Assembly (NCBI GenBank): GCA_007134215.1 | Contig: SLLG01000018.1 | Location: forward strand, 1-47,503 | Direction: 5' to 3' | Origin: Opitutales bacterium | GTDB lineage: Bacteria; Verrucomicrobiota; Verrucomicrobiia; Opitutales; Oceanipulchritudinaceae | DNA length: 47,503 nucleotides | Shown here: positions 6,634-26,932 of the stretch, piece after piece | Layout: every line of letters starts with the position of its first letter | How positions within the stretch are numbered: position 1 is the first letter of the stretch | Position numbers and translations under genes: made by a program | Notes under the pieces: generated by a model | Databases searched by the model: none | Seen by the model: the letters and a program-made list of their open reading frames with translations, nothing else | Told to the model about the DNA's origin: nothing

Positions 6634-8604
6634 ATGAAATCACACCATCCCCATTTGATCCCGCCGTGTACCGCTTTGCGGATACTCGCCGTTGCGGTTT
6701 GCGCCGCCGGCCCCGCGTCCGCCTTTGATTTTCAGATCGGCGATGTCGATGCCCGGCTTGACCTGACGGTGTCCGTCGGCGGGATGTACCGTGTCAAAAG
6801 CGCGCAGCCGGACCTCATCGGCCTCGCGGCCGGCGGCGCGCAGTTCTCGGTGAACGCCGACGACGGCAACCTGAATTACTCCAAGGGATGGGTGTCCGCC
6901 CCCGTCCTCGCCACGGCTGACCTTGATCTGCGTTACCAGCGCTCCGGTGCGTTCTTCCGGGCGAGTGCCTTCTACGACTACATCAACGAGGAGCGCGACC
7001 GCGAGCGCACGCCGCTCTCGCCGGAGGCGCTCGACCGTGTCGGCAGTCGCTTCGACATGCTCGACGCCTACGTGTGGCACAACTTCCGCGTCGGCGGTGC
7101 GCCTGTGAACCTTCGGCTGGGACGCCAGGTCATCAACTGGGGCGAGAGCACATTCATTCCGAACGGGATCAATGTCGTTAATCCGGTCGACGTCTCCATG
7201 CTGCGCCAACCGGGGTCCGAACTGCGCAATGCCTTTTTGCCGGTGTGGCTGGCGAGCGTATCCGCGGGGGTCACGGATAACGTGACTGTCGAGGCGTTCT
7301 ATCAATTCCGTTGGAAGGAGATCATCATCGATCCGCCGGGGACGTATTTCAGCACGAATGATTTTGTCGGGCGCGGAGGCGACCGGGTATTTCTCGGATT
7401 CGGCTCGCTGCCGGACGACGGCGACCTCGGGGCCATCCCGCGCGGGGAGGACCGCCGCCCCACCCATGCGGGGCAGTTCGGGCTCGCCGCCCGGATCTAT
7501 GCGCCGGAACTCAACGGAACGGAGTTCGGCTTGTATTTTGTGCACTACCACAGCCGCGTGCCAGTGCTCAGCGCACGCACGCCGACCTCTGCCATCGATC
7601 CCGCTGTCGTCCAGGCGACGGCCGGCAACCTTGCCCAGGCCAATCTTGCCCCGGCGATGATCGCGCAGGGGATTGCACCCGAGACGGTGTCGGCCGTCCT
7701 GCCGCAGCTCGTGGGCGCGGCCCTCATGGAGGTTCCGGTGGAAGGCCTCCCGCCGGAGCTGGCTTCCTTTGCCCCCTTCTATCCCGGCGCGCTGCAGATC
7801 GCGTCCGGCGCGCGTCAGGTTGGCTTTCTCACCGCCGCCGCCACAGGGCGCTACCTCGTGGAGTATCCCGAGAGCATCAAACTCCTCGGCGCCAGTTTCA
7901 ACACCGACGTCGGCACCACCGGCATCTCTCTCCAGGGCGAGTTGTCCTACCGCTGGGACCAGCCCCTCCAGATCGACGACGTTGAACTGCTCTTCGCCGC
8001 GCTCTCGTCGATCAACCCCGGCTTTGCCGCCGTCAACCAATTGGGCGATTTCAGCGGACAGCTGGACACCTATGTGCGCGGATGGTCGCGCGAATCCGTC
8101 TGGCAGGCGCAGATGACGGCGACGAAGGTCTTCGGGCCCATGCTCGGGTCGAATCAGGCGGTATTCCTTGTCGAGGCCGGGGCCAACTACGTGCCGGGCC
8201 TGCCCGGCAAAGACGAGCTGCGCTTCGAGGCGCCGGGCACCTTCCTCGGCGGGAGTGAAATCGCAACACAGGCGGGACTCCAGCCCGCCACCGAGCCCCG
8301 CGACCATTTTGCGGATCGTTTCTCATGGGGATACCGCGCGGTCGGGAGGCTGGACTACGACAACCTTCTTTTCAGCACGAATGTGTCGCCCATGATCCAG
8401 TTTGCCCACGACGTGGCCGGGACGACACCGCAGCCGATCGGCAATTTCGTCGAGCACCGTAAGTCCGTGACCCTCGGCGCGCAGGCAACCTATCAGCTCT
8501 CATGGACGGCGGATATCAACTACACTAAGTTCTTCGGGGCCGGGCGCCGGAACCTGATCCGCGACCGCGATTTTGTCACCGCCACGGTAAAGTATTCATT
8601 CTAA
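6634..8604 (+). CDS. DUF1302 family outer-membrane protein
   Basis: 656 residues with a cleavable signal peptide (about 1-30, ending PASA before FDFQIGDVD). The mature N-terminus, with GDVDARLDLTVSVGGMYRVK, is typical of DUF1302 proteins. So are LRLGRQVINWGESTF near residue 160, the alternating aromatic and polar strands and a terminal phenylalanine (VKYSF), as in outer-membrane beta-barrels. DUF1302 proteins are usually encoded beside a DUF1329 protein and an MMPL/RND transporter, exactly as here, and are thought to form the outer-membrane part of a hydrophobic-compound or lipid transport system. The substrate is not known from sequence. No clear ribosome site precedes the ATG, unlike the next gene. 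Confidence 0.88.
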   Translation: MKSHHPHLIPPCTALRILAVAVCAAGPASAFDFQIGDVDARLDLTVSVGGMYRVKSAQPDLIGLAAGGAQFSVNADDGNLNYSKGWVSAPVLATADLDLRYQRSGAFFRASAFYDYINEERDRERTPLSPEALDRVGSRFDMLDAYVWHNFRVGGAPVNLRLGRQVINWGESTFIPNGINVVNPVDVSMLRQPGSELRNAFLPVWLASVSAGVTDNVTVEAFYQFRWKEIIIDPPGTYFSTNDFVGRGGDRVFLGFGSLPDDGDLGAIPRGEDRRPTHAGQFGLAARIYAPELNGTEFGLYFVHYHSRVPVLSARTPTSAIDPAVVQATAGNLAQANLAPAMIAQGIAPETVSAVLPQLVGAALMEVPVEGLPPELASFAPFYPGALQIASGARQVGFLTAAATGRYLVEYPESIKLLGASFNTDVGTTGISLQGELSYRWDQPLQIDDVELLFAALSSINPGFAAVNQLGDFSGQLDTYVRGWSRESVWQAQMTATKVFGPMLGSNQAVFLVEAGANYVPGLPGKDELRFEAPGTFLGGSEIATQAGLQPATEPRDHFADRFSWGYRAVGRLDYDNLLFSTNVSPMIQFAHDVAGTTPQPIGNFVEHRKSVTLGAQATYQLSWTADINYTKFFGAGRRNLIRDRDFVTATVKYSF

Positions 8605-8622
8605 CCCTACACAGGAGGCGTC

Positions 8623-9987
8623 ATGTCCAACCTAATCATCACAAAGCCCTTCCTTTTTCTTTCGCTGCTTGGAGCTGCGTCCATTGTTCAAGCTCAGGTT
8701 TCTTCGTCGGAGGCGGAACGCCTCGGGCGCGACCTGACGCCCGTCGGCGCTGAGCGCGCGGGCAGTGCCGACGGTGTCATTCCCGCATGGGACGGCGGCA
8801 TCAAGGAATGGCCCGGCGGATACCGTCCGGGCATGCACCACCCCGATCCCTTCGCGGACGACGGACGCCTGTTCGTAATTACCGCGGAAAACATGGATGA
8901 GCACGCCGATTACCTCACGGACGGTCACAAAGCCATGCTGCGCGCGTATCCGGAGACGTACACCATCCCCGTCTATCCCACGCGCCGCTCCGCTTCTTAT
9001 CCCGAGGAAGTGTATGAGGCGACCAAGCGCAATGCCGTCAACGCAAGACTCGTCGGCGACGGCGACGGCGTGGCGGGAACGCGCTTCGGCTTTCCCTTTC
9101 CCATTCCTTCCCGCGGAGAAGAGGTGATGTGGAACCACCTCATGCGCTATCGCGGTGAGGGAGCGACGCGCACCATCACGCAGGCCTCGCCGAACCGGCG
9201 CGGTGACTACACGCTTGTTGAGTTCCACGACGAGTTTCTCTTCAACTACGGCGGCGGTGAAGCCATGGATGGTGTCTCCGAAAATATCCTGCTTTTCCTC
9301 AAGCAGACGGTCGTCGCGCCGGCGCGCCTTGCCGGCTCTATCCTTCTTGTGCACGAGACCCTCGACCAAGTGCGTGAGCCGCGCCGCGCGTGGACCTACA
9401 ACGTCGGCCAGCGCCGCGTGCGGCGCGCACCCAACGTCGCCTATGACAATCCGGGGACCGCCTCCGACGGCATGCGCACGAGCGACCAATTCGATATGTT
9501 CAATGGCGCCCTCGACCGCTACAACTGGGAGATCCTCGGTAAGCGTGAGATTATCGTACCCTATAATAATTACAAGCTGCACAGCGACTCGGTCCGCGTG
9601 CGGGATATTCTCCGGCCCCTTCACATCAATCAGGACCTCACGCGCTACGAACGGCACCGCGTCTGGGTTGTCGAGGCGACCCTCCGCGAGGGCACCCGCC
9701 ATATCTACCCCCGGCGCGTGTTCTACGTCGACGAAGACAGTTGGCAAATTCTTGTCGTCGAACAATATGACGGGCGCGGCCAGCTGTGGCGGGTGTCCGA
9801 AGGGTTCGCCATCAACTACTACGAGGTTCCCTGCCTGTGGACGACGCTTGAGGTGCATACCGACTTGCAGGCCGGGCGCTACCTTGCTATCGGCATGGAC
9901 AACGAGCTGCGGCCCTACGATTTCTCGCAGAAGCCGTCGCCCGCGGATTTTACACCCGCCAATCTCCGCCGCGAAGGCGTGCGTTGA
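8623..9987 (+). CDS. DUF1329 family periplasmic/outer-membrane-associated protein
   Basis: 454 residues with a signal peptide ending near SIVQAQ. The segment LGRDLTPVGAERAGSADG with IPAWDGG just after it, and the later DGHKAMLRAYPETY, are hallmarks of DUF1329. Members are predicted to have a LolA/LolB-like lipid-binding fold and to work with the neighbouring DUF1302 barrel. A strong ribosome site, AGGAGG, lies six bases before the ATG, and the gene starts 18 bp after DUF1302, so the two are co-transcribed. The C-terminus carries aromatic and proline-rich strands. The function in transport is inferred from family context. Confidence 0.9.
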   Translation: MSNLIITKPFLFLSLLGAASIVQAQVSSSEAERLGRDLTPVGAERAGSADGVIPAWDGGIKEWPGGYRPGMHHPDPFADDGRLFVITAENMDEHADYLTDGHKAMLRAYPETYTIPVYPTRRSASYPEEVYEATKRNAVNARLVGDGDGVAGTRFGFPFPIPSRGEEVMWNHLMRYRGEGATRTITQASPNRRGDYTLVEFHDEFLFNYGGGEAMDGVSENILLFLKQTVVAPARLAGSILLVHETLDQVREPRRAWTYNVGQRRVRRAPNVAYDNPGTASDGMRTSDQFDMFNGALDRYNWEILGKREIIVPYNNYKLHSDSVRVRDILRPLHINQDLTRYERHRVWVVEATLREGTRHIYPRRVFYVDEDSWQILVVEQYDGRGQLWRVSEGFAINYYEVPCLWTTLEVHTDLQAGRYLAIGMDNELRPYDFSQKPSPADFTPANLRREGVR

Positions 9988-10001
9988 TACGGAGCATGCG
10001 G

Positions 10002-11027
10002 ATGGTTCCGGTCTTCTCCAGCGGGCCGACCGCTAAAGCGCTGCGCTACATGCGCGGTGCGGCGGGATTGCGGTCATCCATTCTCTCCTTTGTTGTCTGT
10101 CTCATCTTCTCCCTCCCCAATCCCGTTGCCGCCCGTGTGGAAATCGCCGCGGAGATCATGCCACTGGCGGAGCGGTCGGTTCTCCTCGATGTCACGCTGG
10201 CGGGGGACCGTCTCGTGGCGGTAGGAGAGCGTGGCCACGTTCTCCTCTCCGATGATTTCGGTGAGACATGGAAGCAAACCGCCGTTTCGACGCGGTCTAC
10301 GTTGACGGCGGTTTTCTTTGCGGATGCGCAGCGGGGATGGGCCGTGGGCCACGACAACGTTATTCTCGCGACGGCTGACGGCGGCGTGTCATGGAGTCAT
10401 CAATACGCGGAAGGCGGTATCGAAAACCGCTTTCTCGACGTATACTTTCTCGATGACGGACGCGGTTTTGCCGTCGGAGCTTACGGACTTTTCGTGGAAA
10501 CCGTTGACGGTGGCGCGAGATGGACTTCGCGCGAGATCTATTGGGAAGAGCTTCACTTCAACCGGATTTCCATGGCGGCGGACGGTCGTCTCTTCATCGC
10601 CATGGAAACGGGCGAACTGCTGCAATCCGTCGACGACGGCGGGACATGGGAAGAAATGGATTCGCCGTACGACGGTTCACTCTTCGGTGTCCTGTCCCTC
10701 GGCGCGCGGACGCTCGTTGCCTACGGTCTGCGGGGCAACGTTTTCCGTTCGAGCGACGGTGGCGAGTCGTGGGTTGTTGTGGAGACGCCGGCGCCGCTCC
10801 TCGTCACCCACGGTATCCGCCTCGCCGGCGGAGAGGTGGTCCTCGCCGCGCAGAACGGTCGGTTTTTTCTCAGCCGCGACGGCGGGCGCTCTTTCACGGT
10901 GTGGCAAGTGCCCGTGCAGGGCGCGGCCGCACTGACCGAGGCGCCCGATGGGTCGGTTGTCGCCGTGGGGTTGAACGGTGTCTGGCGGCTGCAGGTTCCG
11001 CGGAGAGAGGGGCGGCGCGAAGGGTGA
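10002..11027 (+). CDS. YCF48/BNR-repeat secreted protein of the DUF1302-MMPL operon
   Basis: 341 residues. A signal peptide (cleavage near VAARVEIAA) is followed by a beta-propeller built from repeats of the form LLSDDFGETWKQ, ILATADGGVSWSH, LFVETVDGGARWTS, VFRSSDGGESWVV and FFLSRDGGRSFTV. The frame opens at a TTG that overlaps the DUF1329 stop, but the ATG at 10002 sits seven bases after GGAG (9991-9994) and is the better start. YCF48-like propellers act as assembly factors in photosystem II. In operons like this one they are taken to be periplasmic adaptors of the transporter; that is inference. Its end overlaps the start of the MMPL gene by four bases, implying translational coupling. Confidence 0.85.
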   Translation: MVPVFSSGPTAKALRYMRGAAGLRSSILSFVVCLIFSLPNPVAARVEIAAEIMPLAERSVLLDVTLAGDRLVAVGERGHVLLSDDFGETWKQTAVSTRSTLTAVFFADAQRGWAVGHDNVILATADGGVSWSHQYAEGGIENRFLDVYFLDDGRGFAVGAYGLFVETVDGGARWTSREIYWEELHFNRISMAADGRLFIAMETGELLQSVDDGGTWEEMDSPYDGSLFGVLSLGARTLVAYGLRGNVFRSSDGGESWVVVETPAPLLVTHGIRLAGGEVVLAAQNGRFFLSRDGGRSFTVWQVPVQGAAALTEAPDGSVVAVGLNGVWRLQVPRREGRREG

Positions 11028-13384
11028 AAACCGGGCTGCGTACAACGCCCGGAGGCGAGAGGCTAGAGCGGGCTGCCGAGGTCCTCTTCCGCTTTCGCGC
11101 GGTGGTGCTTGTCCTGTTTGTGGCGGCGACGGCCTTTCTCGTGTGGTCAGCTCTGCAGTTGCGTGTCGACGCCGGTTTCACGAAGCAATTGCCGCTCAGC
11201 CATGAATACATCCAAACCTTTCTCGAGTATCAGGATGAATTCGGCGGGGCGAACCGCGTGCTGATTGCTTTCACGGTGGATGAGGGCGATATTTTCAATC
11301 CCCTCTTTTTCGACCTCCTGCGCGAGGCGACGGACGAGGCGTATTTCATCCCGGGGGTTGACCGGGCTCAGGTGACTTCGATCTGGACGCCGAATGTCCG
11401 TTTCATCGAAATTGTGGAAGACGGTTTTGCCGGCGGTAATGTGGTGCCCGCCGATTTTCAGGGAACGGAGGAGGATCTCCGGGTTGTGCGCGAAAACATC
11501 GTTAAATCCGGACGGCTCGGCCAGTTGGTGGCCAACGACTTCACGGGTGCGATCATCTCCGCCCAGCTCCTTGAGGTCGATCCGGCGACCGGCGAACGCC
11601 TCGACTACATCAAAGTGGCGAATCACCTCGAAGAGCGTTTCCGGGATCCGTTTGAGCGCCGCGGACACTCTTTCGGGCTCAATGTCCACATCATCGGATT
11701 TGCAAAGGTGATCGGTGACGTGCGCGACGGGGCGGCGAATGTCATTCTCTTCTTTTTTATATCTCTGCTGATCACGACGGTGTTCGTCTTCTATTACGCG
11801 CAGTCCGCGAGGCTTGCCGGGCTCACCGTTCTGACGGCGGTGACGGCCGTTGTCTGGCAGCTCGGGCTCTTGCGCCTTCTCGGCTTCGGGATCGATCCGA
11901 TGTCGATTCTTGTGCCGTTCCTCGTCCTCGCCATCGGAGTGAGTCACGGGGTGCAGATGGTGCGGTCCTTCCGGAGCGGCTTCTTTGACGGCAAATCGAG
12001 CCTTCATGCCGCCCGCGACAGCTTCGTCCAGTTGCTCGTGCCGGGGTCGACGGCGCTCGCGACCGACCTGATCGGATTTATCACGATCCTCGCCATCCGT
12101 ATTCCGATCATCCAGGAACTGGCCGTTACGGCGAGCCTCGGCATCTTCACGCTCTTTTTCACCAATCTGCTGCTCCTGCCGGTCCTTTTGTCCTATGTGC
12201 GGCTCGATCCCGCGCTGCGCCGGCGCATTCAGCACCGCCGCGACAAGACCGACCGGTTCTGGAGGCGGGTGGCTCTGGTGGCGCAACCGGGATGGTCGCT
12301 CACCATGATCGCGCTCGCCGTCGTCCTCGCCGCCGGGGGCTTTCACTATGCCGCGCAAGTGCGCATCGGTGACCTGAGCCACGGCGTGCCCGAACTGCGG
12401 CCCGGGTCGCAATACAACCGCGATAGCGCCGTGATCACCGAACGCTTCGATGTCGGCGTCAATGTTATCACCGTTATCTGTGAAACGATTCCCAACGGGT
12501 GCGTGGATTACCGCATCATGGAGAAGATTGACCGGCTTTCGTGGCACGCACGCAACGCGCAGGGCGTGCAGTCGGTATCTTCGCTTCCAGTCGTTGCAAA
12601 GACGGTCAATCAAGGATGGAACGAGGGAAATCCGAAGTGGCACATCCTGCCGCGCCATCCCGCCGTGCTCGGGCAGGCGATCGCCCCGGTCGACACGGCC
12701 ACCGGTCTCCTCAATGCCGACGGCAGTGTCATGCCCGTCTACATTTTCCTCCGCGACCACAAGGCGGAAACCATCGAGGGCGTGATCGCTACGGTGAAGG
12801 CATTCCGCGACGCGGAGAACGCGGACAATGTCGCCTTCCGGCTCGCGACCGGCAATGTGGGTGTCATGGGGGCGACCAACGAGGTGGTGGCGGCCGCACA
12901 GTTTCCCATGCTGCTCTATGTTTTCAGCGCCGTCATCCTCCTCTGCCTCATCGCCTTCCGTTCGTGGCGGGCGGCTTTTTGCATTGTCGCACCGCTTGCG
13001 GTTGTATCCATTCTTGCGTACGCGCTCATGTATTCGATGGAGATCGGCCTCAAAGTCTCCACGCTTCCCGTCGTGGCGCTCGGGGTGGGGGTGGGGGTCG
13101 ATTACGGGATCTACCTCTTCTTCAAGTTGCGCGAGTTTATGCGCGCTGGCCTGCTCTTCGAGGAATCCCTCGTCGAAGCGCTGCGGCAGACGGGGAGCGC
13201 TGTCGTCTTTACGGGACTCACCCTCGCGGTGGGTGTGAGCACGTGGATTTTCTCGGCCCTGCAGTTCCAGGCGGACATGGGGATTCTTCTCACGTTTATG
13301 TTTCTCTTCAACATGCTGGGGGCCATTCTCTTGCTGCCCGCCATTGCCCGCTGGCTCATGCCCCACCACCACTGGCGTCGGTGA
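11024..13384 (+). CDS. MMPL/RND family transporter
   Basis: 786 residues from a GTG that overlaps the previous stop (GTGA) with GAAGG just upstream. The frame runs open far to the left, but that part is a shadow of the YCF48 gene. Topology is that of a 12-helix RND protein: helix 1 (26-46), a large extracytoplasmic loop, five helices at about 238-400, helix 7 (about 422-442), a second loop, and five helices at about 625-780. GVGVDYGIYLFFKL in the second half matches the conserved charged helix of MMPL proteins. MMPL transporters move lipids and other hydrophobic compounds using proton motive force. With DUF1302 and DUF1329 partners it probably moves a hydrophobic substrate across the envelope. 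Confidence 0.9.
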   Translation: MKTGLRTTPGGERLERAAEVLFRFRAVVLVLFVAATAFLVWSALQLRVDAGFTKQLPLSHEYIQTFLEYQDEFGGANRVLIAFTVDEGDIFNPLFFDLLREATDEAYFIPGVDRAQVTSIWTPNVRFIEIVEDGFAGGNVVPADFQGTEEDLRVVRENIVKSGRLGQLVANDFTGAIISAQLLEVDPATGERLDYIKVANHLEERFRDPFERRGHSFGLNVHIIGFAKVIGDVRDGAANVILFFFISLLITTVFVFYYAQSARLAGLTVLTAVTAVVWQLGLLRLLGFGIDPMSILVPFLVLAIGVSHGVQMVRSFRSGFFDGKSSLHAARDSFVQLLVPGSTALATDLIGFITILAIRIPIIQELAVTASLGIFTLFFTNLLLLPVLLSYVRLDPALRRRIQHRRDKTDRFWRRVALVAQPGWSLTMIALAVVLAAGGFHYAAQVRIGDLSHGVPELRPGSQYNRDSAVITERFDVGVNVITVICETIPNGCVDYRIMEKIDRLSWHARNAQGVQSVSSLPVVAKTVNQGWNEGNPKWHILPRHPAVLGQAIAPVDTATGLLNADGSVMPVYIFLRDHKAETIEGVIATVKAFRDAENADNVAFRLATGNVGVMGATNEVVAAAQFPMLLYVFSAVILLCLIAFRSWRAAFCIVAPLAVVSILAYALMYSMEIGLKVSTLPVVALGVGVGVDYGIYLFFKLREFMRAGLLFEESLVEALRQTGSAVVFTGLTLAVGVSTWIFSALQFQADMGILLTFMFLFNMLGAILLLPAIARWLMPHHHWRR

Positions 13385-13468: not shown

Positions 13469-13516
13469 GTCGTGTTGTGCCGGTCTTCCGGGCCGGGTTT
13501 TTACGAATTACACGAC
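13469..13516 (+). terminator. Possible terminator structure after the MMPL operon
   Basis: A 7-bp inverted repeat, GTCGTGT and ACACGAC, encloses a CCGG-TCTT-CCGG hairpin, a further CCGG and a run of five T. It lies about 85 bp after the MMPL stop and before the GTPase gene. The stem is short, so termination may be weak. Confidence 0.35.
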
Positions 13517-13596: not shown

Positions 13597-15933
13597 ATGT
13601 TAAAAGAAACCATACACGTCGACCTCACCGAATTCTGCCAGAGTTTCTCCGGCACGCTCGAGCCCTTCGCCGAAGCGCTCGAAGAAGCGATCCAAACGAT
13701 CCGGCGCGTGCCGGACGAGCCCTCCCTCAACGCCGTGTCGAGCGCGCTCCTCGACAACCAACACCGCCTGAAAATCCTGCGGGACAAGGCGGCGCAGCAA
13801 AATACCTACCTTGTCATTTTCGGCCCGTTGAAGAGCGGCAAGTCCACGCTCATGAACGCGATCAGCGGCTCCTACGTGAGCGAGGTGTCCAGTCTGCCCG
13901 CGTATCCCTGCCTAGTGTATGTGCACGAAGGCGAGGAGCGCGAGTTCTCCCTCACGCGCTTCAACGGAGAGCGGACGACGTTTCACTCGGGCGCGGAACT
14001 CCAGGAGACTGTCGAAGAGGCGCACCAGCTTCTCGCCCATGAGATCCGCAAGGCCGACGAGGAGGGGCGCGTCTTCAGTCCCGCGCAGGATTATGATGAG
14101 GCCGTGCGGCGCATCGACTTCACGCTCCCGGCCCCGTCGCTCCGCGAGTCGGGCACGATCCTCGTCGATACGCCCGGGCTCTACACCAAGATGAAATACG
14201 ACTACGGGCAGCTCACGCGGGATTTCCGGGATACCGCCGCGTGCGCCGTGTTTGTCGTCAAGACCGACAATCTTTTCTTCGAGCAGGTGTTTACGGAATT
14301 CGCGGACCTGCTGAATGTGTTTTCACGGGTTTTCCTCGTCGTCAACATCGACTCATCCAAAAAGGATCTCAGCCCGTCGGGAGAACTCGAGCCGGCCCTC
14401 GAGACGAAGGATCCGCGGAAGATTGTGGAGGCGTTTGAGACGTTCACCGTGAGCGCGCAGATCCGTTCCGCCATCGAGAGCGGGCGGCTGCGGATTTACC
14501 TGATCGATCTCCTGCGCACCGCCGAGAGGCGTTTGCAGGAGTCAAAGGAAGGCGGCGTCCCGGCCGATACCGCAACCCATGGCCCGGACGAGGCGGAAGG
14601 GGCTGACGCCGCTCCGGGGGCACGCGCGGAAGATGAGGCGGAGACGGAGGCCGGCGTCGAGGTTGCGGAGGATGGTGACGCGGCGGAACATTCTACGGCG
14701 GGCGGCGAAGGGGTGACCGCCGGTGAGATTGTCCGCCCGGAGACGGAGGTGCAACTGGGCTTCGATGCCTTCGTCGACGACCTCACTGAATACCTCAACA
14801 GCAGCGACTATATTATTGAGTTTATGTCCGACAGTCTCCGGCAGGCGCGTTCCGTGCTCGACGAAACGGATGAACAGGCGGGTTCGCAGGCGGTGTCGGA
14901 TTTGCGCGCCCGCATCAAGGATTTGAAGAAGGCGTCGGACGAAAAGGAGGGCCAGCTCCACGCCGTGCGCTTCCTTGGCGAGGACAAGTGGGACCACCCG
15001 CTGGAGGAAATGCTCGGCGGCCTGCGCGAACGCGTGAAGGAACAGGCGTTGTCCGTCCTCCCCGGGCTCAAGGCGAGCCTACGCGGCGAGGTCGACAATT
15101 GGTATGAGTCGGATGAAAGCCTTGGCAATTTGCTCGCGGAGCGCAGCCGCTCCCGCATCGCCGAGGCGTGCTCCGGCGCGCGCGGCAAGGGCGCGCGGTT
15201 GATCGATGAGAGCGCGCGGGAGAAAGATGCCGGGCTGCGCTTGAACTCGGAGATCCTCCATTGCCTCCGCGACCTCGGTCTGTCGCTCGACGATATCTAC
15301 CCCGCCTTCGAACCCGAGGCGAAGCAGCGGCTCGGGAAACCTCCCGAGCTACCTGATCCGGGCGCGGTGGAGGCGGAACTGCCTGTGCGGCGCACGTTTC
15401 TCGACTGGGTTCTCTTCCGCTCGCCCGCCGCTGTGCGGCGCCGCCTCCTCGGCGAGTCGTCGCCCTCAGACCAGCCCATTTCCGCAGGTGTCAAAGCCAA
15501 GCGGCTGGGGGAGACCGGACGCGACTACCTTGCCGCATCCATCGAGAGTTATGCTGCGGAAGCGTTCGAAAACAGCGTCGTGAAGGAACTCGAGAGCGTG
15601 TTGGACGCCTACGCCGCTTTCTTCAAAAAGCGCCTCGCCGAGCGCCTCGACCGCAAATCCACCGAATTGCAGAAGATCTCGTCCGACCTGCGGCGGCGCT
15701 ACCAGGCGCAGCGGTCCGCGCTCGACGCGCTCGACGGTCTCGGCTCCGCGGCGGAGAGGCTCCGCGGCGAGGTGAACGGACTGCACGAGCGCTTTGTGGG
15801 CGACAAACGAAGTCTCGACTCCGCCGTGGAAGGCGCGGATGATGCCGAGAATGCGGAAGATCAGGACGATGGCGACGACAGCGAGGCGCGGGAGCCCGGC
15901 ACGGAACCGCCGGTTGACGACCGCACTGCCTGA
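13597..15933 (+). CDS. Dynamin-like GTPase with acidic insert and acidic tail
   Basis: 778 residues. The GTPase domain shows a P-loop GPLKSGKST (76-84), the switch segment SSLPAYPCLV (98-107), DTPG (191-194) and VNIDSSKKDL (249-258) in the G4 position; the order and spacing match the dynamin_N family. Residues about 318-383 form an Ala/Glu/Asp/Gly-rich low-complexity insert between GTPase and helical parts. The C-terminal half is long alpha-helix with probable coiled coils (EKEGQLHAV region and 690-735), and the last 40 residues are again strongly acidic. No transmembrane helix is obvious. Bacterial dynamin-like proteins remodel or fuse membranes and some act in phage defence. The next gene, 90 bp on in the same direction, is a membrane-anchored ATPase and a likely partner. 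Confidence 0.82.
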   Translation: MLKETIHVDLTEFCQSFSGTLEPFAEALEEAIQTIRRVPDEPSLNAVSSALLDNQHRLKILRDKAAQQNTYLVIFGPLKSGKSTLMNAISGSYVSEVSSLPAYPCLVYVHEGEEREFSLTRFNGERTTFHSGAELQETVEEAHQLLAHEIRKADEEGRVFSPAQDYDEAVRRIDFTLPAPSLRESGTILVDTPGLYTKMKYDYGQLTRDFRDTAACAVFVVKTDNLFFEQVFTEFADLLNVFSRVFLVVNIDSSKKDLSPSGELEPALETKDPRKIVEAFETFTVSAQIRSAIESGRLRIYLIDLLRTAERRLQESKEGGVPADTATHGPDEAEGADAAPGARAEDEAETEAGVEVAEDGDAAEHSTAGGEGVTAGEIVRPETEVQLGFDAFVDDLTEYLNSSDYIIEFMSDSLRQARSVLDETDEQAGSQAVSDLRARIKDLKKASDEKEGQLHAVRFLGEDKWDHPLEEMLGGLRERVKEQALSVLPGLKASLRGEVDNWYESDESLGNLLAERSRSRIAEACSGARGKGARLIDESAREKDAGLRLNSEILHCLRDLGLSLDDIYPAFEPEAKQRLGKPPELPDPGAVEAELPVRRTFLDWVLFRSPAAVRRRLLGESSPSDQPISAGVKAKRLGETGRDYLAASIESYAAEAFENSVVKELESVLDAYAAFFKKRLAERLDRKSTELQKISSDLRRRYQAQRSALDALDGLGSAAERLRGEVNGLHERFVGDKRSLDSAVEGADDAENAEDQDDGDDSEAREPGTEPPVDDRTA

Positions 15934-16023
15934 GGACTGGCAGCGCCCGCCCGGGTGGGCGGTCGTGGCAACCGCTTCCATTCGTCCGGCCCGCCGAGCG
16001 GGGCGGCGTAGCTCCCAGCCATT

Positions 16024-17550
16024 ATGGATCTAAAAGACTTCTTCGCACACTGGCACCTGAGTGAAAACCCCTTTCTCGCTGAGGAGGCAAGAAACGACGC
16101 GGTCTACGCGCGGACATTGGCGGCGACGGTCACCCACCCGGACTTTCAGAAGATCGAAGGGTCGCCGCGCAATCCGAGCACCTCCATCGTTTTCGGGGAG
16201 AAGGGCAGCGGTAAAACTGCGATGCGCCTGATGATCGAGCAGCGGTTGCGCGCCTTCAACAAGGAGCATTCCACCGGGCGGGCGTGGATCGTGCGCTACG
16301 ACGACCTCAACCCTGTGCTCGACCGGCTCTCGCACAACCTCTCCCTCAAAGATCCCGCCGAATGTCTCGACCACATCACCCTTTCCGATCACCAGGATGC
16401 CATCCTCAGCCTCGCCGTCACGGACCTCCTCGACTGGATCCTCGGTGAGGACAACAACGACGCGGAGGACAAACGCCGCCGGAAGGCCGACCGCAAAGCG
16501 CTCCGGAAAATGAGCCGCGAAAAGCGCCTCGACCTCGCGCTCTTCGCCCTGCTCTACGATCAGCCTGCCCACGGTGACGACGGCACCCGGTGGTCCCGCA
16601 TCCTGCGGCTACTCCGCGTGCGGCCCCTGCTCGACCGCACCGGGCTCGGTGTCGCCGCGCTCCTTTTCGGGCTCGCGGGGCTGGCCGGGGCGGGGGTGTG
16701 GCGCTTCACCGAGTCCGCCGCCTTCGAATGGAAGGTGACCGCCGTTGCGGGAACGCTCGGCTTCGTCCTCCTCGGATCGGCATGGGTGTCCGGCAGCCTC
16801 CGCCGCTGGTTCCGCGCGGGCCGCGTGCGGGAAGCTGTCCGCACCGTCAGCCACTCCCGCAAGGGGCTCTCCCGCGCGTTTTGGAACCTCCCGGAGAATC
16901 CCGGCACGCTCGCTCTGCTCCCCGACAAAGAAGACCAGGACAAGCGTTACGAGGCGACACAACGGCTGCTCCGCATCCTCGGTGCCATCGGCTACGACTC
17001 GCTTGTCGTCCTTGTCGACCGCGTCGACGAGCCCGTCCTCATCAACAGCGATGTCGAGCGCATGCGCAAACTCGTCTGGCCGCTCCTCAACAACAAATTC
17101 CTCCAGCAGGAGCGCGTCGCTGTGAAGTTGCTCCTGCCCATCGAACTCGGGCACCAGGTCGAGCGCGAGGACACCGCCTTCCAGCGGCAAGCGCGCCTCG
17201 ACAAGCAGAACCTCGTCAACCCACTCCGCTGGACCGGCGCCACCCTCTACGACCTCTGCAGCCGCCGCTTCCGCCATTGCCAGACCGAGGGCGGCTCCGG
17301 CGCCCCCGTCGAGGAGTTGAAAGACATCTTTGCCGACGATGTCGACCACCACGACCTCGTGGAGGCGCTCGACCAGATGCACCAACCGCGCGACGCTTTC
17401 AAATTCCTCTACGCCGTCATCCGCCGCCACTGCGAAAACACCCCCGGCGACACCGCCGAATACAAAATTCCCCGGCTCACCCTCGAACAGGTGCGCCGCG
17501 AACAAAGTGAACGCGTCATGAATCTCTACCGCGGCATCAGCGCCCACTGA
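16024..17550 (+). CDS. Membrane-inserted P-loop ATPase, KAP-like layout, partner of the dynamin-like GTPase
   Basis: 508 residues. Walker A is GEKGSGKT (58-65). Two hydrophobic helices (about 206-226 and 236-256), joined by a short loop, lie between Walker A and a Walker B-like VVLVDRVDEP (328-337). This arrangement, membrane helices inside a P-loop domain, is the mark of KAP NTPases, though the overall sequence is not one I recognise with certainty; an AAA/STAND-type ATPase is the alternative. The C-terminal part is helical and charged (LRWTGATLYDLCSRRF, near 401-416, resembles a winged-helix lid). The N-terminus, with HWHLSENPF, resembles AAA ATPases of the ExeA/TniB kind. It follows the GTPase by 90 bp with no other gene between, and probably forms a two-gene unit with it. 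The role is unknown. Confidence 0.7.
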   Translation: MDLKDFFAHWHLSENPFLAEEARNDAVYARTLAATVTHPDFQKIEGSPRNPSTSIVFGEKGSGKTAMRLMIEQRLRAFNKEHSTGRAWIVRYDDLNPVLDRLSHNLSLKDPAECLDHITLSDHQDAILSLAVTDLLDWILGEDNNDAEDKRRRKADRKALRKMSREKRLDLALFALLYDQPAHGDDGTRWSRILRLLRVRPLLDRTGLGVAALLFGLAGLAGAGVWRFTESAAFEWKVTAVAGTLGFVLLGSAWVSGSLRRWFRAGRVREAVRTVSHSRKGLSRAFWNLPENPGTLALLPDKEDQDKRYEATQRLLRILGAIGYDSLVVLVDRVDEPVLINSDVERMRKLVWPLLNNKFLQQERVAVKLLLPIELGHQVEREDTAFQRQARLDKQNLVNPLRWTGATLYDLCSRRFRHCQTEGGSGAPVEELKDIFADDVDHHDLVEALDQMHQPRDAFKFLYAVIRRHCENTPGDTAEYKIPRLTLEQVRREQSERVMNLYRGISAH

Positions 17551-17958: not shown

Positions 17959-19464
17959 TCAGCCGAAGCGGATGCCTTGAGCGAGGGCGGGGGGTTGGCG
18001 GCCGTAGTAGGTGGTGGAGGTTTGGCGGCGCATGTACTGTTTCCAGCTGTCGGATCCGGACTCGCGTCCGCCACCGGTTTCTTTTTCGCCGCCGAAGGCA
18101 CCGCCGATTTCCGCGCCGCTGGTGCCGATGTTGACGTTGGCGATGCCGCAGACGGCGTTTTGGCGAAAGACTTCGGCCTCGCGCAGGTCAGTGGTGAAGA
18201 TGGCGCCGGAGAGGCCCTGGGGCACGGCGTTGTGGAGGGCGACGGCATCATCGAGCCCGCGGCAGGGCATGGCGTAGAGGATTGGCGCGAAGGTCTCGGC
18301 GCGGACGACGGGGATCGGTTCCCGTAGGCAGACGAGGGCGGGTTCGACGTAGAAGGCCTCCGGATACCGTTCGGCGAGGAGGCGTCCGCCGCCGTGGACG
18401 GCCGCGCCCGCAGCGCGGGCGGTCTCAAGGGCGGCTTGCATGGCGTCGAAGGCGCGGCGGTCGATGAGGGGGCCGACAAGGGTGCCGTCGGCGAGGGGAT
18501 CGCCGATGCGTCCGCGGAGGGAGGTGAAGGTTGTTTCGAGGCGGGCGACGAGTTCGTCATAGACGGATTCGTGCGCGATGAGGCGGCGGGTGGAGGTACA
18601 GCGTTGCCCGGCGGTCCCGACCGCGCCGAAGACGATGGAGGGCAGGGCGACGGCGGGGTCGTATGAGGGCATGACAATGACGGCGTTGTTGCCGCCGAGT
18701 TCGAGGAGGCACCGGCCCATGCGGTCGGCGACGTCCCGGCCCACGGCTTTGCCCATGGGCACGCTGCCGGTGGCGCTGACGAGGGCGGCTCGGGGATCGC
18801 GCGCGAGGGCTTGCCCGGCCTCATGTCCGCCGATAACAACTTGGGAGAGGTGGGGCGGTATGTCGTCGATACCGGATTCAGCGACTGTCTTCTCAAAGAG
18901 GGTCTGGCAGGCGAGGGCGGTGAGCGGCGCCTTCTCGGAGGGTTTCCAGACGACGGTGTCGCCGCAGACGAGGGCGACGGCGGAGTTCCACGACCAGACG
19001 GCGACGGGAAAATTAAATGCGCTGATGACGCCGACGACGCCGAGCGGATGCCAGTTTTCGTGCATGACGTGGGCGGGGCGTTCGGAGGGGAGGGTGAGCC
19101 CGCCGAGTGTGCGAGAGAGACCGACGGCGAAGTCGCAGATGTCGATCATCTCCTGCACCTCACCGAGGCCCTCCTCGCGGATCTTGCCGCACTCGATGGC
19201 GACGAGTTCGCCGAGGGCTTCTTTGTGTGCGCGCAGGGTATCGCCGAAGCGGCGGATGAGTTCGCCGCGCACGGGTGCGGGCACCGACCGCCAGGTCTCG
19301 AAGGCTTGTGCCGCGCGCGCTACGGCGGCACCGACGTCGTCCGGACCGGACTGTGGAAGGCGGGCGATTTCACCGCCGTCGACCGGTGAGCGGACGGACA
19401 GGCTGCCGCCCCGGAGCGCGTCGGGGCGGAGGTGCAGTTTGGTGAGGAGCGGATCGATGTTCAT
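17959..19464 (-). CDS. ALDH7-family aldehyde dehydrogenase, probable L-aminoadipate-semialdehyde dehydrogenase
   Basis: 501 residues. It oxidises 2-aminoadipate 6-semialdehyde (allysine) to 2-aminoadipate with NAD(P)+. ALDH7/antiquitin signatures are visible: SAFNFPVAVWSWNSAVAL, the cofactor segment ATGSVPMGKAVG, general base Glu255 in LELGGNNAVIV and nucleophile Cys289 in GTAGQRCTSTRRL. The GGNN and RCTSTRRL forms separate ALDH7 from other aldehyde dehydrogenases. The frame continues far upstream, but that part is a shadow of the dehydrogenase gene; the ATG at 19464 overlaps that gene's stop by four bases, so the two are translationally coupled. It is the last gene of the hglS operon and supplies the step after the dehydrogenase. 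Confidence 0.88.
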   Translation of the reverse strand: MNIDPLLTKLHLRPDALRGGSLSVRSPVDGGEIARLPQSGPDDVGAAVARAAQAFETWRSVPAPVRGELIRRFGDTLRAHKEALGELVAIECGKIREEGLGEVQEMIDICDFAVGLSRTLGGLTLPSERPAHVMHENWHPLGVVGVISAFNFPVAVWSWNSAVALVCGDTVVWKPSEKAPLTALACQTLFEKTVAESGIDDIPPHLSQVVIGGHEAGQALARDPRAALVSATGSVPMGKAVGRDVADRMGRCLLELGGNNAVIVMPSYDPAVALPSIVFGAVGTAGQRCTSTRRLIAHESVYDELVARLETTFTSLRGRIGDPLADGTLVGPLIDRRAFDAMQAALETARAAGAAVHGGGRLLAERYPEAFYVEPALVCLREPIPVVRAETFAPILYAMPCRGLDDAVALHNAVPQGLSGAIFTTDLREAEVFRQNAVCGIANVNIGTSGAEIGGAFGGEKETGGGRESGSDSWKQYMRRQTSTTYYGRQPPALAQGIRFG

Positions 19465-20561
19465 GTTACGGCCGGGTGGTGGTTGCCGCCGGGCTGGAAG
19501 TGGCGGCCGTTGCGGGTTTTGAGAAAATCGGCGAGGGAGACTTCCTCCTGCTTGAGAAAGCCTGTCTTGTGCGGAAGCCGGCCTGCGAAGAGCATTTCGA
19601 TGACAGCGCAGGCGGAGCAGGCTGTGGTCCACGATATGGCGCGCCATGTGTCTCCGGTCATCCGGCGGGGGAGGTAGGCGTGCACGAATTCGTCGAGCAT
19701 GTGCTCGCGCCGGCCGGAGACGGTCTTCCATCCGTCCACGGCGGCGTAGACGTAGACGACGTCTTTGCTTACGGGGGGTAGGGCGTTGACGAGGATTTCG
19801 CCCGCGAGCGGACGGTTGTTTTTCATGAGGATTTCGTGGAAGTAGAAACGCATGAGGTCGAGGTGGCCGGGGTAGCGAATCGTTTTGTAGTTGAGATCCG
19901 ATACGCTTCCTTCGAAGGTTTCGCACATCGTGCCGAGCCCGCCGGAGGTGGTGAACGCCTCGAGCTTGTGCCCCTCGATGACAAGCGTCTCGCGGTTCTG
20001 CATGGCGGGGACGGTTTTTCGCTCCCCGCCATGGATGACCTCGCAGTCGTTGAGGTATTGGTTGACGACGCCTTCGGGCGACCAGTTGAAGGCGTAGCCG
20101 AGCATGCCGCGCGGCGATTGCGGCAGCGCGCCGACGCGGAGCCGGATGGACCGGATTTCGTCGAAGGCTTTGGCGAGGTTCGCGCCGACGATGGAGATGA
20201 AGCCCGGCGCGAGTCCGCACTGGGGCGCGAGCACGCAATCGGCGGAGGCGGAAAGCGCTTTGATGTGGCGCGCGGCCGCGACGTCCTCGGTGAGGTCGAA
20301 GTAATGGACGCCGGACGCGACGGCGGCTTCGACGACTGTCTTGTTGAGATCGTAGGGCAGGCAGGACACGACGGCGTCGTACCCGGCAATCTGTTTGCCG
20401 AGGGCTTTGCCGTCACGCACGTCGCCGCGGAAGACGGGGAAGGGAAAGTCGTCGCGCTCTTCGCTGTCGATCGCGCCGACTTCGAAGCCAGTGTCTTTGA
20501 GCAGCCGGCCCACGAGGGAGCCGACCTTGCCGAGGCCGAGAACGAGGACTTTATGGGGCAT
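19461..20561 (-). CDS. Saccharopine dehydrogenase-like enzyme, probable L-lysine 6-dehydrogenase
   Basis: 366 residues. A Rossmann fold opens with VLVLGLGKVGSLVG; VVSCLPYDLNKTVVEAAV, GVHYFDLTED and APQCGLAPGFISIVG are typical of the saccharopine dehydrogenase family. The length fits single-domain lysine 6-dehydrogenases (about 370-385 residues), which turn lysine directly into allysine; a saccharopine dehydrogenase that needs a separate lysine-ketoglutarate reductase is the alternative. No such reductase is encoded nearby, which favours the first reading. It lies between hglS and an allysine dehydrogenase, so allysine is the shared intermediate. The exact substrate is inferred from context. 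Confidence 0.78.
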   Translation of the reverse strand: MPHKVLVLGLGKVGSLVGRLLKDTGFEVGAIDSEERDDFPFPVFRGDVRDGKALGKQIAGYDAVVSCLPYDLNKTVVEAAVASGVHYFDLTEDVAAARHIKALSASADCVLAPQCGLAPGFISIVGANLAKAFDEIRSIRLRVGALPQSPRGMLGYAFNWSPEGVVNQYLNDCEVIHGGERKTVPAMQNRETLVIEGHKLEAFTTSGGLGTMCETFEGSVSDLNYKTIRYPGHLDLMRFYFHEILMKNNRPLAGEILVNALPPVSKDVVYVYAAVDGWKTVSGRREHMLDEFVHAYLPRRMTGDTWRAISWTTACSACAVIEMLFAGRLPHKTGFLKQEEVSLADFLKTRNGRHFQPGGNHHPAVT

Positions 20562-20666
20562 GGACGGTTGGGTACGAGGTGGGAGTCGTTCGCTGAAGCT
20601 TCGCGCTACGGCGGTGCGGGGTGTGGGCTGAGATTTCAGCTATGCAAGCGACTGTCCCGGCGACCT

Positions 20667-22025
20667 TCATGGAAATGCGGTGCGCCCGTCGCTGTCGATG
20701 ACTTCGCGCAGAGAGGCGTTCTCTTCGGCGGCGTAAAGGCTGTAGGCTTCGGTGATATTGGTTTCGAGGTAGCCCTCGAGCCGTTCCTTGGTGTAGCTCA
20801 CGGTCTCGGTGGTTTCGCGGCGGGTGCCGTATTGGCCGAGGTTGGAGGCGAAAATGCCCGCGGCACTGACGGGGAGGAAATCCTCGTAGCGTATCGGATG
20901 GGCTACGACGGTCCCGGCGGCGAGGGCGTCGGGAAGCGATTCGGCGGGGACGTATGCACGCGCCGCGTGCGCGGCGCGGGAGTAGCGGAAGTAGGCGAGG
21001 CGCTCGCGGCGGAGGGCTTCGAAGTCGTCGGGGATGCGGGCGAAGGCGCTTTTCCGGTCGGCGGCGGATTCGGCGTCCGCAAGGGCTTCGTCGTAGAGAC
21101 GGCGGCCGGCGGGCGTCATAGCCGCGCCGCGTTGTTCGATCTCGCCGAAGCGCGCGCGGTGGGTCGCCTCGACGCGGGCACCGTCGGTTTTGGTGAAGAC
21201 GACGTCTTCATCGAGGGCGTTGTAGGCGGTTTGGCGGAGGAGTATCGGGGCGGCGCGGCGGGGCGGGCCTTCGATGGAATCCTTCATGCCGCGGTGGGGC
21301 AGGTGCGCGTAGGGGCCTTGCAGACGCCGCGTCATTTCGGCGTAGAGTTCGTCGATATCGAGTGAGTTGGGGGTGAGGTGGTTGAGGTGCGGGTTGGGAA
21401 AACAGGCGATGTCCGCAGCGATGTTGAAGCGCTCGTCGACAAGGGCGCGGTAGAGACTTTGGTCGCGCGCCGTGCCGCGCCATGCGAAGAGTGCCGTGGC
21501 CTCGGCGACGAAGGTCTCGGCGTCTCCGCCGGCGAGTCCGCCTGCCGTTTCTGATTTTTCGATGAGCCGGAGGAGTGTGTCGCTGAAGATGCGCCGCTCG
21601 CGCAGGGCACTTTCCACCCGCCTCCGCATCGCCGGGGCGAAGGCATCGGTCATGAGGAGCGAGCAAAAGACACGGTGGTCGGCATCGAGCAGGGGACGGA
21701 ACGCGGTCGAGATGACAGGCTGGCTTTTCGCGCCCGCTTCGGCAAGGTTGTAGAAGTCGACCGGCATCATGTCGAGGCAGGCGAAGAAGCGCGCCATGTC
21801 GCGGATTTCCTCGGGTTTACCGAGGCGGATGGCCCCGTGTCGTTCGGCGCTGATGTCGTCGACGGTCCGCCCCGGTGGCAGGCGCGCGGGGTCGCGCGCG
21901 GCGATCCTTCCGTTTACGTCGCGCACGGTTTCGAGGAGCTTGTCGTAGAGAGGCACTTCCCGCGCGTAGAGGGCGGAGAGGGCGGCGAAGAGGCTTTTGC
22001 GCAGAGCGGTTTTGGGGTTCGTCAT
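20667..22025 (-). CDS. hglS: 2-oxoadipate dioxygenase/decarboxylase HglS (DUF1338)
   Basis: 452 residues of the DUF1338/YdcJ family. HglS uses Fe(II) and O2 to convert 2-oxoadipate to D-2-hydroxyglutarate in lysine catabolism. The N-terminal ISAERHGAIRLG gives His63 and, four residues on, Arg67; this is the same spacing as the metal His and substrate-binding Arg I recall for the Pseudomonas putida enzyme. NHLTPNSLDID supplies His216 and GEIEQRG supplies Glu295 or Glu297 as the other likely ligands. It is the first gene of the operon, 105 bp upstream of the dehydrogenase. The 2-aminoadipate aminotransferase and D-2-hydroxyglutarate dehydrogenase needed on either side are not in the window. Confidence 0.87.
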   Translation of the reverse strand: MTNPKTALRKSLFAALSALYAREVPLYDKLLETVRDVNGRIAARDPARLPPGRTVDDISAERHGAIRLGKPEEIRDMARFFACLDMMPVDFYNLAEAGAKSQPVISTAFRPLLDADHRVFCSLLMTDAFAPAMRRRVESALRERRIFSDTLLRLIEKSETAGGLAGGDAETFVAEATALFAWRGTARDQSLYRALVDERFNIAADIACFPNPHLNHLTPNSLDIDELYAEMTRRLQGPYAHLPHRGMKDSIEGPPRRAAPILLRQTAYNALDEDVVFTKTDGARVEATHRARFGEIEQRGAAMTPAGRRLYDEALADAESAADRKSAFARIPDDFEALRRERLAYFRYSRAAHAARAYVPAESLPDALAAGTVVAHPIRYEDFLPVSAAGIFASNLGQYGTRRETTETVSYTKERLEGYLETNITEAYSLYAAEENASLREVIDSDGRTAFP

Positions 22026-24871: not shown

Positions 24872-26932
24872 TCAATAGCGGACGGGGCGGAAACCGACTT
24901 TTTCGTAGCACTCCTGTGGCAACTCGGTGAGAAAACGGCTCGGCTCCGCGCGTATGGCACCGCCGCGTGTCTTGTTCATCATGGGAAAGCAGAGGTAGAG
25001 TTGGTCCATCGCACGGGTGACGGCAACATAGAAGAGCCGCCGCTCTTCGTCGACCGCCCCCGACTCCACCGCCCGCTTAAGGGGAAAGAGATCCTCCGCG
25101 CAGCCGAGGACGAAGACGACGGGGTACTCGAGGCCTTTTGCCTGGTGGACGGTGGTCATCCGCACGGTGTCCTCGTCCGGGTCGACGGAGCGGTTTGAGG
25201 TCTCCGAGTTGAGGAGGACTACTTGGGAGAGGAATTCCGAGAGGGTCTCGAACTTCTCGGCGAAACTAAGGAGGCCCTCGAGGTCTTCGCGCCGTTCCTC
25301 GCCGTTGGAGTAGGCCGTGAGGATGTAATCACCGTACCATCCGTCGATGCCGCGCTGCACGAGGCGCGCCGCCGAGGTCCCGCGTTCAGCGTCTTCGAAG
25401 AGTTCGTTCAGCTCGCAGAGCGTCTGCGCGAGTTGCTTGAAGTCGGCCTTCGCGTCCGCCGGGACCTTGGCGACAACCGACGGCTTGAGAAGGGCGCTGA
25501 AGATGTCGCCGGGCGCGGACGGTGCGGTGTCGAAGAGCGTGGCTTCGGCGGAGACATTGGCGCGTCGCGCTTTTTCGCGCTCGAGGTCGGCGGCCTTTAG
25601 GATTTTCAACACCGTGGCGGGGCCAACGCGGGGAAGGAGCCCGAGGAGCCGCTCGAAGGCGGGTTTGTCCGCCGGGTTGTTGATGACGCGCAGCTGCGCG
25701 ATAAAGTCGCGGATGTGCGCCTGCTCGAAAAACCGTACCCCGCTCGTTATGACGAAGGGAACGCCCGCGCGCGTCAGCTCCAGCTGCGCGTCGACGGCCT
25801 GGTAGTGGGCGCGGTAGAGCACGGCGATGTCCTTGAGCGCGTAGCCCTCGTCGTAGAGCCCTTGGATACGCTGGGCGAGGAACTGGCCCTGCTGCACGCT
25901 GTCGAGAAGCGGCACGACATAGGGAGTGAGGTTGTCCTCTCTGGCCGCAATGAGTTCTTTGAAGTACCCGGCCGTCGCCGGTTGTGCTTCGAGAACCTTG
26001 TTGGCGAGGGAGAGAATCTGCGGCGAGCTGCGGTAGTTGCGCACGATCTTGTAGATGCGTGTGCCGGGATGGCGGTCCGGGAAGGCGCGGATGTTCTCGA
26101 AGACCGCCCCGCGCCACGTGTAGATGCACTGCGCGTCGTCGCCCACCGCCATGATATTGTGGTGGTGCCCGATGAGATCGATGATCTCGCTCTGCATGAT
26201 GTTCGTGTCCTGGTACTCGTCGACGAGCACGTACTGGAACTTCTCCTGCAGGTAGGTCCGCGTCTCCTTGTCCTCCTTCAGGAGCTTCAGCCAGTAGTAG
26301 AGCAGGTCGTCATAGTCAGCAACCTGGAGCTGGAGCTTCCGCTCCCGGTAGACCTTCGCGAATTTCTCGAAGCGGCCCGTGAGCGCGGCGTCGCCCCAGG
26401 GATAGCGCTGGCGCACGACCTCGCGCAGCGAGGTGTCGGTGTTGATCGAGTAGCTGATGATGCTGGAGACGACGTTGGGCTTCGGGTTGTCCTTGTTCTT
26501 CAGGTAACCGGGGTCCAGCTCCTTGATGATGCTCGACATGAGCGCCTCGGCGTCGCCCTGGTCGAGGATGTTGTAGTTGGGTTCGATGCCCACGGAGCGC
26601 CCGAAGCGGCGCAGAAGGCGCCCGCCGATGGAGTGGAAGGTGCCCCCGTAGCTCGGCGGGTACTGCGCCCCCGTAAGCTCCATGACCCGCTGGATCATCT
26701 CGCGGGCGGCTTTGTTCGTAAACGTAAGCAGGAGGATATTCTGCGGGGAGACTCGCTTCTCCAGCATGAGATAGGCGACGCGGTAGGTGAGCGTGCGCGT
26801 CTTGCCCGACCCCGCGCCCGCAAGCACCAGCGCCGGGCCCGGCGGCGCCGTCACCGCCGCAAACTGCTCCTCGTTCAGTTCGGCCTCGAAATCAATGGGA
26901 GAAAACTCCAGCATTTCCACAGCCTGCCGCAT
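24872..26932 (-). CDS. pcrA: UvrD/PcrA/Rep-type ATP-dependent DNA helicase
   Basis: 686 residues of superfamily 1A helicase. Motif Q in LNEEQFAAV, Walker A GAGSGKT (39-45), motif Ia LLTFTNKAAREM, Walker B DEYQDTN (238-244), motif III VGDDAQCIYTWRGA, motif IV VRNYRSS and motif V TVHQAKGLEYPVVFV, with VAVTRAMDQLYL (motif VI) near the end. It unwinds DNA 3'-to-5' in repair and replication restart. PcrA/UvrD are usually about 720 residues or longer; the shorter C-terminus lacks the usual RNA polymerase-binding tail, so a Rep-like role is possible. GGGAGG abuts the first ATG, leaving the start uncertain by a few codons (second ATG at 26914). Confidence 0.9.
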   Translation of the reverse strand: MRQAVEMLEFSPIDFEAELNEEQFAAVTAPPGPALVLAGAGSGKTRTLTYRVAYLMLEKRVSPQNILLLTFTNKAAREMIQRVMELTGAQYPPSYGGTFHSIGGRLLRRFGRSVGIEPNYNILDQGDAEALMSSIIKELDPGYLKNKDNPKPNVVSSIISYSINTDTSLREVVRQRYPWGDAALTGRFEKFAKVYRERKLQLQVADYDDLLYYWLKLLKEDKETRTYLQEKFQYVLVDEYQDTNIMQSEIIDLIGHHHNIMAVGDDAQCIYTWRGAVFENIRAFPDRHPGTRIYKIVRNYRSSPQILSLANKVLEAQPATAGYFKELIAAREDNLTPYVVPLLDSVQQGQFLAQRIQGLYDEGYALKDIAVLYRAHYQAVDAQLELTRAGVPFVITSGVRFFEQAHIRDFIAQLRVINNPADKPAFERLLGLLPRVGPATVLKILKAADLEREKARRANVSAEATLFDTAPSAPGDIFSALLKPSVVAKVPADAKADFKQLAQTLCELNELFEDAERGTSAARLVQRGIDGWYGDYILTAYSNGEERREDLEGLLSFAEKFETLSEFLSQVVLLNSETSNRSVDPDEDTVRMTTVHQAKGLEYPVVFVLGCAEDLFPLKRAVESGAVDEERRLFYVAVTRAMDQLYLCFPMMNKTRGGAIRAEPSRFLTELPQECYEKVGFRPVRY

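Follow-up and report, generated by a model that had tools for sequence, protein, structure and literature searches.

Two neighbouring genes of the window (47.5 kb from a draft genome of 4.4 Mb) are considered here: A, for a soluble dynamin-like GTPase, and B, for a P-loop ATPase that is AAA+-like and predicted to carry two membrane helices. This A-B pair is real but restricted in its distribution: the two genes are adjacent, in the same order and on the same strand, in seven of the eight genomes found to possess both. The reading tentatively preferred here, with a probability of about 45%, is that the two genes together make up a chromosomal unit for remodelling membranes, probably for their maintenance, in which B would be the anchor or regulator of A. 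The pair would offer a compact test system of two proteins for the way bacteria direct such remodelling.

As originally noted, the two open reading frames lie next to each other on the + strand, 90 nt apart. Both are considered real genes, since their proteins are conserved in other genomes (87-37% identity for A and 93-38% for B). The layout of the locus is as follows:

13480..13496, + strand, terminator-like hairpin in the interval that separates A from the MMPL gene upstream (weak: 4 such sites vs. 4.1 expected)
13597..15933, + strand, gene A, soluble dynamin-like GTPase, 778 aa (Dynamin_N match)
15934..16023, + strand, A-B intergenic gap, 90 nt
16024..17550, + strand, gene B, AAA+-like P-loop ATPase with two predicted membrane helices, 508 aa (NF053860 and NF047389 matches, both below cut-off; AF2 model)

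Neither a terminator-like nor a promoter-like site was found in the + strand scan of the A-B gap. The weak hairpin upstream of A would, if real, set A-B apart as a unit separate from the MMPL gene.

Concerning gene A, its assignment to the dynamin family was borne out by a Dynamin_N match of 44.5 bits (Pfam cut-off of 27) and by the P-loop and DTPG motifs, which are kept in all 22 relatives examined. The following features were delimited:

13810..14346, + strand, GTPase domain, residues 72-250 (Pfam, motif conservation)
13822-13845, + strand, P-loop, GPLKSGKS
14167-14178, + strand, DTPG motif
14530..14757, + strand, acidic linker between the GTPase domain and the helical stalk, residues ~312-387 (pLDDT <50; near-zero conservation)
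15388..15453, + strand, basic-aromatic conserved motif, residues 598-619, RRTFLDWVLFRSPAAVRRRLLG (conservation)

The acidic, unconserved linker is probably disordered. Outside the GTPase domain, the best conserved stretches among the 22 relatives are a block at residues 401-420 and the basic-aromatic motif, conservation reaching 0.68 in residues 601-620 vs. ~0.37 across most of the stalk; this motif is a candidate membrane-binding tip. The AlphaFold2 (AF2) model of A, built from six sequences, has a mean pLDDT of 62 and a weak GTPase domain (pLDDT <50), but its neck and trunk helices (403-735) mostly reach pLDDT values of 80-95, and its top VIA matches are mitofusin 1 and BDLP (Z 12.5). With the GTPase domain poorly modelled, it is the helices that carry the fold match and the sequence that carries the family assignment. 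No 19-residue stretch exceeds a hydropathy of 1.52 in any of the 22 relatives; A, a GTPase of the mitofusin/BDLP type, is thus devoid of a hydrophobic helix of its own, and the basic-aromatic motif is a candidate for the membrane-binding paddle of bacterial dynamins. Two other Dynamin_N matches in the same genome, C191 and C332, are short P-loop matches in frames of 435 and 476 aa; they were discarded as probably other GTPases.

In gene B, two membrane helices had been noted between Walker A and Walker B, and both the hydropathy peaks (202-220 and 238-256) and the AF2 helices are located there:

16195..16218, + strand, Walker A, GEKGSGKT, residues 58-65
16636..16791, + strand, predicted membrane hairpin, helices ~205-228 and 234-256 (hydropathy, AF2 helices)
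17005..17031, + strand, Walker B, VVLVDRVDE, residues 328-336

Walker A is conserved as GEKG[STA]GKT across 48 B relatives, most of which display two hydrophobic peaks between the Walker motifs, some having one above threshold, and the DRxDEP of Walker B is invariant in 28 relatives. In the AF2 model of B (28 sequences; pLDDT 85), helices 205-228 and 234-271 coincide with the hydrophobic stretches. VIA placed archaeal ORC2/Cdc6 first (1w5s, Z 12.8, 259 aligned, rmsd 6.2), followed by RdrA of RADAR (Z 11.4) and TnsC (Z ~10), and Foldseek returned weak AAA+ matches (best E 2.6e-3). An ordinary AAA protein with no membrane insertion, the outcome held up in advance against the prediction, was thus found in one half only: the fold looks AAA+ (Orc/Cdc6-like), but a membrane hairpin is predicted.

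At the family level, all 28 B members match two NCBIfam models: NF053860 (DS41_1 anti-phage protein), at 105.5 bits (3e-30) for the window protein and under the 370-bit equivalog cut-off, the similarity being strongest over residues 299-474; and NF047389 (P-loop ATPase, Sll1717 family), at 59.9 bits and under the cut-off of 75. B forms a conserved, unnamed branch of its own, near the Sll1717-family P-loop ATPases and DS41_1. A literature search for Sll1717 retrieved no paper. A phmmer match between B and an O-methyltransferase, and profile matches to RetS, prefoldin and others, were taken as chance.

B had also been called KAP-like. The KAP NTPases (PF07693; PifA) characteristically have their membrane helices between the two Walker motifs, and this likeness in helix position stood; membership of the family did not. 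PF07693 gave no match at E up to 1 to B, to the 28 B members or to the whole genome, while the same search detects KAPs in 19 of 115 genomes of the phylum. When B was aligned to ten Verrucomicrobiota KAPs with hhalign, the probability was 14%, over 97 columns around Walker B only, and B as a KAP NTPase was ruled out on these two results. Furthermore, KAPs have D[DE][LI]D where B has DRxDEP, and strong hydropathy peaks are absent from most of the KAPs compared here. Most likely, then, B is an AAA+-like ATPase carrying a membrane hairpin, and this topology is all that it shares with the KAPs.

As for the distribution of the pair, 50 B-encoding loci were found in the searched genome contigs, with A directly upstream in five (L005, L006, L007, L009 and L011); at these loci the A-B gap ranges from 36 to 90 nt. 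Among the 273 genomes of the window's order, A was present in 17, B in five and both in four, the two genes being adjacent in all four, and a phylum set of 289 genomes gave B in 11 and A in seven. In G349, from another family of the phylum, the pair is adjacent with 2 nt between the genes; in G330 both are present and unlinked. The eight genomes with both genes are those of the window, G001, G002, G016, G274, G276, G349 and G330. The flanks vary from MMPL/DUF1329 genes in the window's genus to ABC transporter genes (L007) and a translational GTPase gene (L009), and since they differ between lineages, the pair, not the region, is what is kept. In the A tree, the six B-paired proteins of the window and the five loci above form one clade (100/100). 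G349 joins this clade at 84/73 with a long branch, which makes its position unsure.

Each gene also occurs without the other. About 40 of the 50 B loci belong to Phycisphaerae and other Planctomycetota, whose genomes lack A, and from this solo occurrence B must have an independent function. At locus L008, B falls in the paired clade, yet the genome has no A, which was probably lost. Neither gene depends on the other's presence. Rare adjacency in other genomes, named beforehand as an argument against the pairing, was observed in part: most B genomes (Phycisphaerae) are without A and most A genomes of the order without B, but genomes with both have them side by side in seven of eight cases. The idea of a two-component unit is supported at the level of the genes by the conserved order and strand, by A-B gaps between 2 and 90 nt and by varying flanks, in seven genomes of several lineages; its joint membrane function is putative.

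These figures bear on the view that A and B are two unconnected housekeeping genes, adjacent because a chance arrangement was inherited. That most genomes with A or B have only one of them, and that L008 and G330 show a reduced and a split pair, respectively, would be expected under it; it is nevertheless considered unlikely, as the adjacency outlasts changes of flanks and divergence to ~42-45% identity, with gaps down to 2 nt, and as we estimate, from ~4000 genes per genome, a same-order chance adjacency of ~1 in 4000 per independent event.

Solo B genes have settings of their own. In Phycisphaerae, B mostly lies 3' of a phosphoglucomutase-type gene, with a DinG-type helicase gene further upstream (names from sequence), and L028 and ~30 other loci share this steady neighbourhood. 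In family f44 (L141, L140, L132 and L136), B is head to head with an apparent recN-type DNA repair gene. A seeming fusion of B to an upstream domain in G448 (open frame of 1121 aa) was rejected: its extra 600 residues resemble a recN-type gene in antisense, and such a gene adjoins B in relatives.

In other relatives, the place next to A is taken by a different protein. At four loci (L086, L089, L090 and L091), A is directly followed by a 450-453 aa protein with a Dynamin_N match of 63 bits and two C-terminal hydrophobic helices, the L091 copy being cut off by the contig end:

L086, 8057-9415, alternative GTPase
L089, 8606-9964, alternative GTPase
L090, 4590-5939, alternative GTPase

Within the order, this GTPase was detected in nine of the 17 genomes with A vs. 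none of the 256 others, adjoining A in four of the nine and being unlinked in five; the co-occurrence is confounded by phylogeny, most of these genomes coming from family f24, with others in f1 and f22, and hypergeometric values, which take no account of phylogeny, serve as description only. Of the B genomes tested for this GTPase, whether from the order or from elsewhere, none had it; the order-wide search that finds it served as positive control. A without B or the alternative GTPase is found in four genomes of the order. The alternative GTPase appears to fill the partner place in related lineages, a role we infer from co-occurrence. A bolder proposal, which we regard as rather doubtful, is a partner swap: the soluble dynamin A would keep a two-helix P-loop membrane partner, either a dynamin-like GTPase or a non-homologous AAA+-type ATPase, and in the latter case an ATP-driven machine would directly control a GTP-driven membrane polymer. 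If true, conservation would concern the function of anchoring and control, not the family to which the partner belongs.

Few functions are so far known for the dynamins of bacteria, which are taken to partner with other dynamins. Titles and abstracts on dynamin in Verrucomicrobiota and Planctomycetota contained nothing about the A-B pair. Bacterial dynamin-like proteins are mostly encoded as side-by-side pairs in operons; the Campylobacter pair forms a membrane-tethering hetero-tetramer (PMC6104087) and LeoA is thought to act together with LeoBC (PMC4159319). A and B resemble Cj-DLP1/2, LeoABC and Streptomyces DynA/DynB in that a large BDLP/mitofusin-type GTPase lies beside a partner gene (PMC6104087, PMC4159319). 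In those pairs the partner is a second dynamin, whereas B is an ATPase of another family; a second dynamin is found next to A only in the relatives at L086, L089, L090 and L091, family f24 having such a partner. What is new here may thus be a bacterial dynamin pair with an ATPase replacing the second dynamin.

Under the preferred reading of a membrane-remodelling unit, B would sit in the inner membrane through its predicted two-helix hairpin and recruit A to it. B might then spend ATP to load, time or dismantle the GTP-driven polymer of A, which could tether, bend or reseal the membrane. In related lineages, where co-occurrence with A is observed, the small membrane-anchored dynamin-like GTPase would take the place of B. 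Counted in favour of this unit were the seven-genome adjacency, the changing flanks, and an A without membrane helix as against a two-helix alternative partner; counted against it were B alone in Phycisphaerae, the unlinked genes of G330, the A-less B of L008 and the many A genomes without B. Membrane maintenance agrees with the pair's stable place on the chromosome, its metabolic neighbours and its absence from plasmids: a plasmid search for A and B yielded none, save one weak GTPase match to A.

A role in membrane maintenance under envelope stress seems likelier than dedicated phage defence. In the latter case, B would detect infection and then set off A, whose action would be to disrupt the membrane or to seal it. 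DS-41, including DS41_1, is an anti-phage system validated in DefensePredictor and said to reach Halobacteria (PMC13092281), and through the clear DS41_1 profile similarity of all 28 B members a dynamin is linked to the vicinity of a family of anti-phage ATPases. The resemblance of the B model to RdrA, and a weak match of A to the PADLOC LeoBC model (2.5e-8), point the same way. However, the DS41_1 match of B is far under its cut-off (105 vs. 370 bits) and covers DS41_1 alone, and PADLOC gave no match for B. The pair is flanked by metabolic genes, with no defence system recognised nearby, a UvrD-type helicase (24875-26932) matching the GajB models only as a helicase. B copies were not found on plasmids, and in Phycisphaerae B keeps its steady housekeeping neighbourhood, unlike a mobile defence gene. 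Defence is possible but improbable for A-B, and the genomic context offers nothing in its favour.

That B is a membrane-bound general unfoldase or chaperone, with A merely one of its substrates in these lineages, is very unlikely: B does occur solo in Phycisphaerae, and the Foldseek and VIA matches of its model include p97, NVL and Vps4-type AAA+ ATPases, but the best VIA matches are of the Orc/Cdc6 type (Z 11-12.8), not unfoldases.

As regards the surroundings of the pair, a row of DUF1302, DUF1329, Ycf48-like BNR and MMPL/RND transporter genes (6634-13384) lies upstream of A; its DUF1329 and MMPL genes are also kept in L006, and it is probably an export cluster unrelated to A-B. The listed start of the MMPL frame (10520-13384) is likely ~170 codons too early: similarity to TIGR00921 sets in at residue 191, and the start of the relative in L006 is later by a corresponding distance. 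Downstream, convergent with B on the - strand (17962-22025), are genes for an aldehyde dehydrogenase, a saccharopine dehydrogenase and a 2-oxoadipate dioxygenase (HGLS), likely a lysine degradation cluster. Further on, at 27013-28017, the window holds a gene for an IS200-like (Y1_Tnp) protein.
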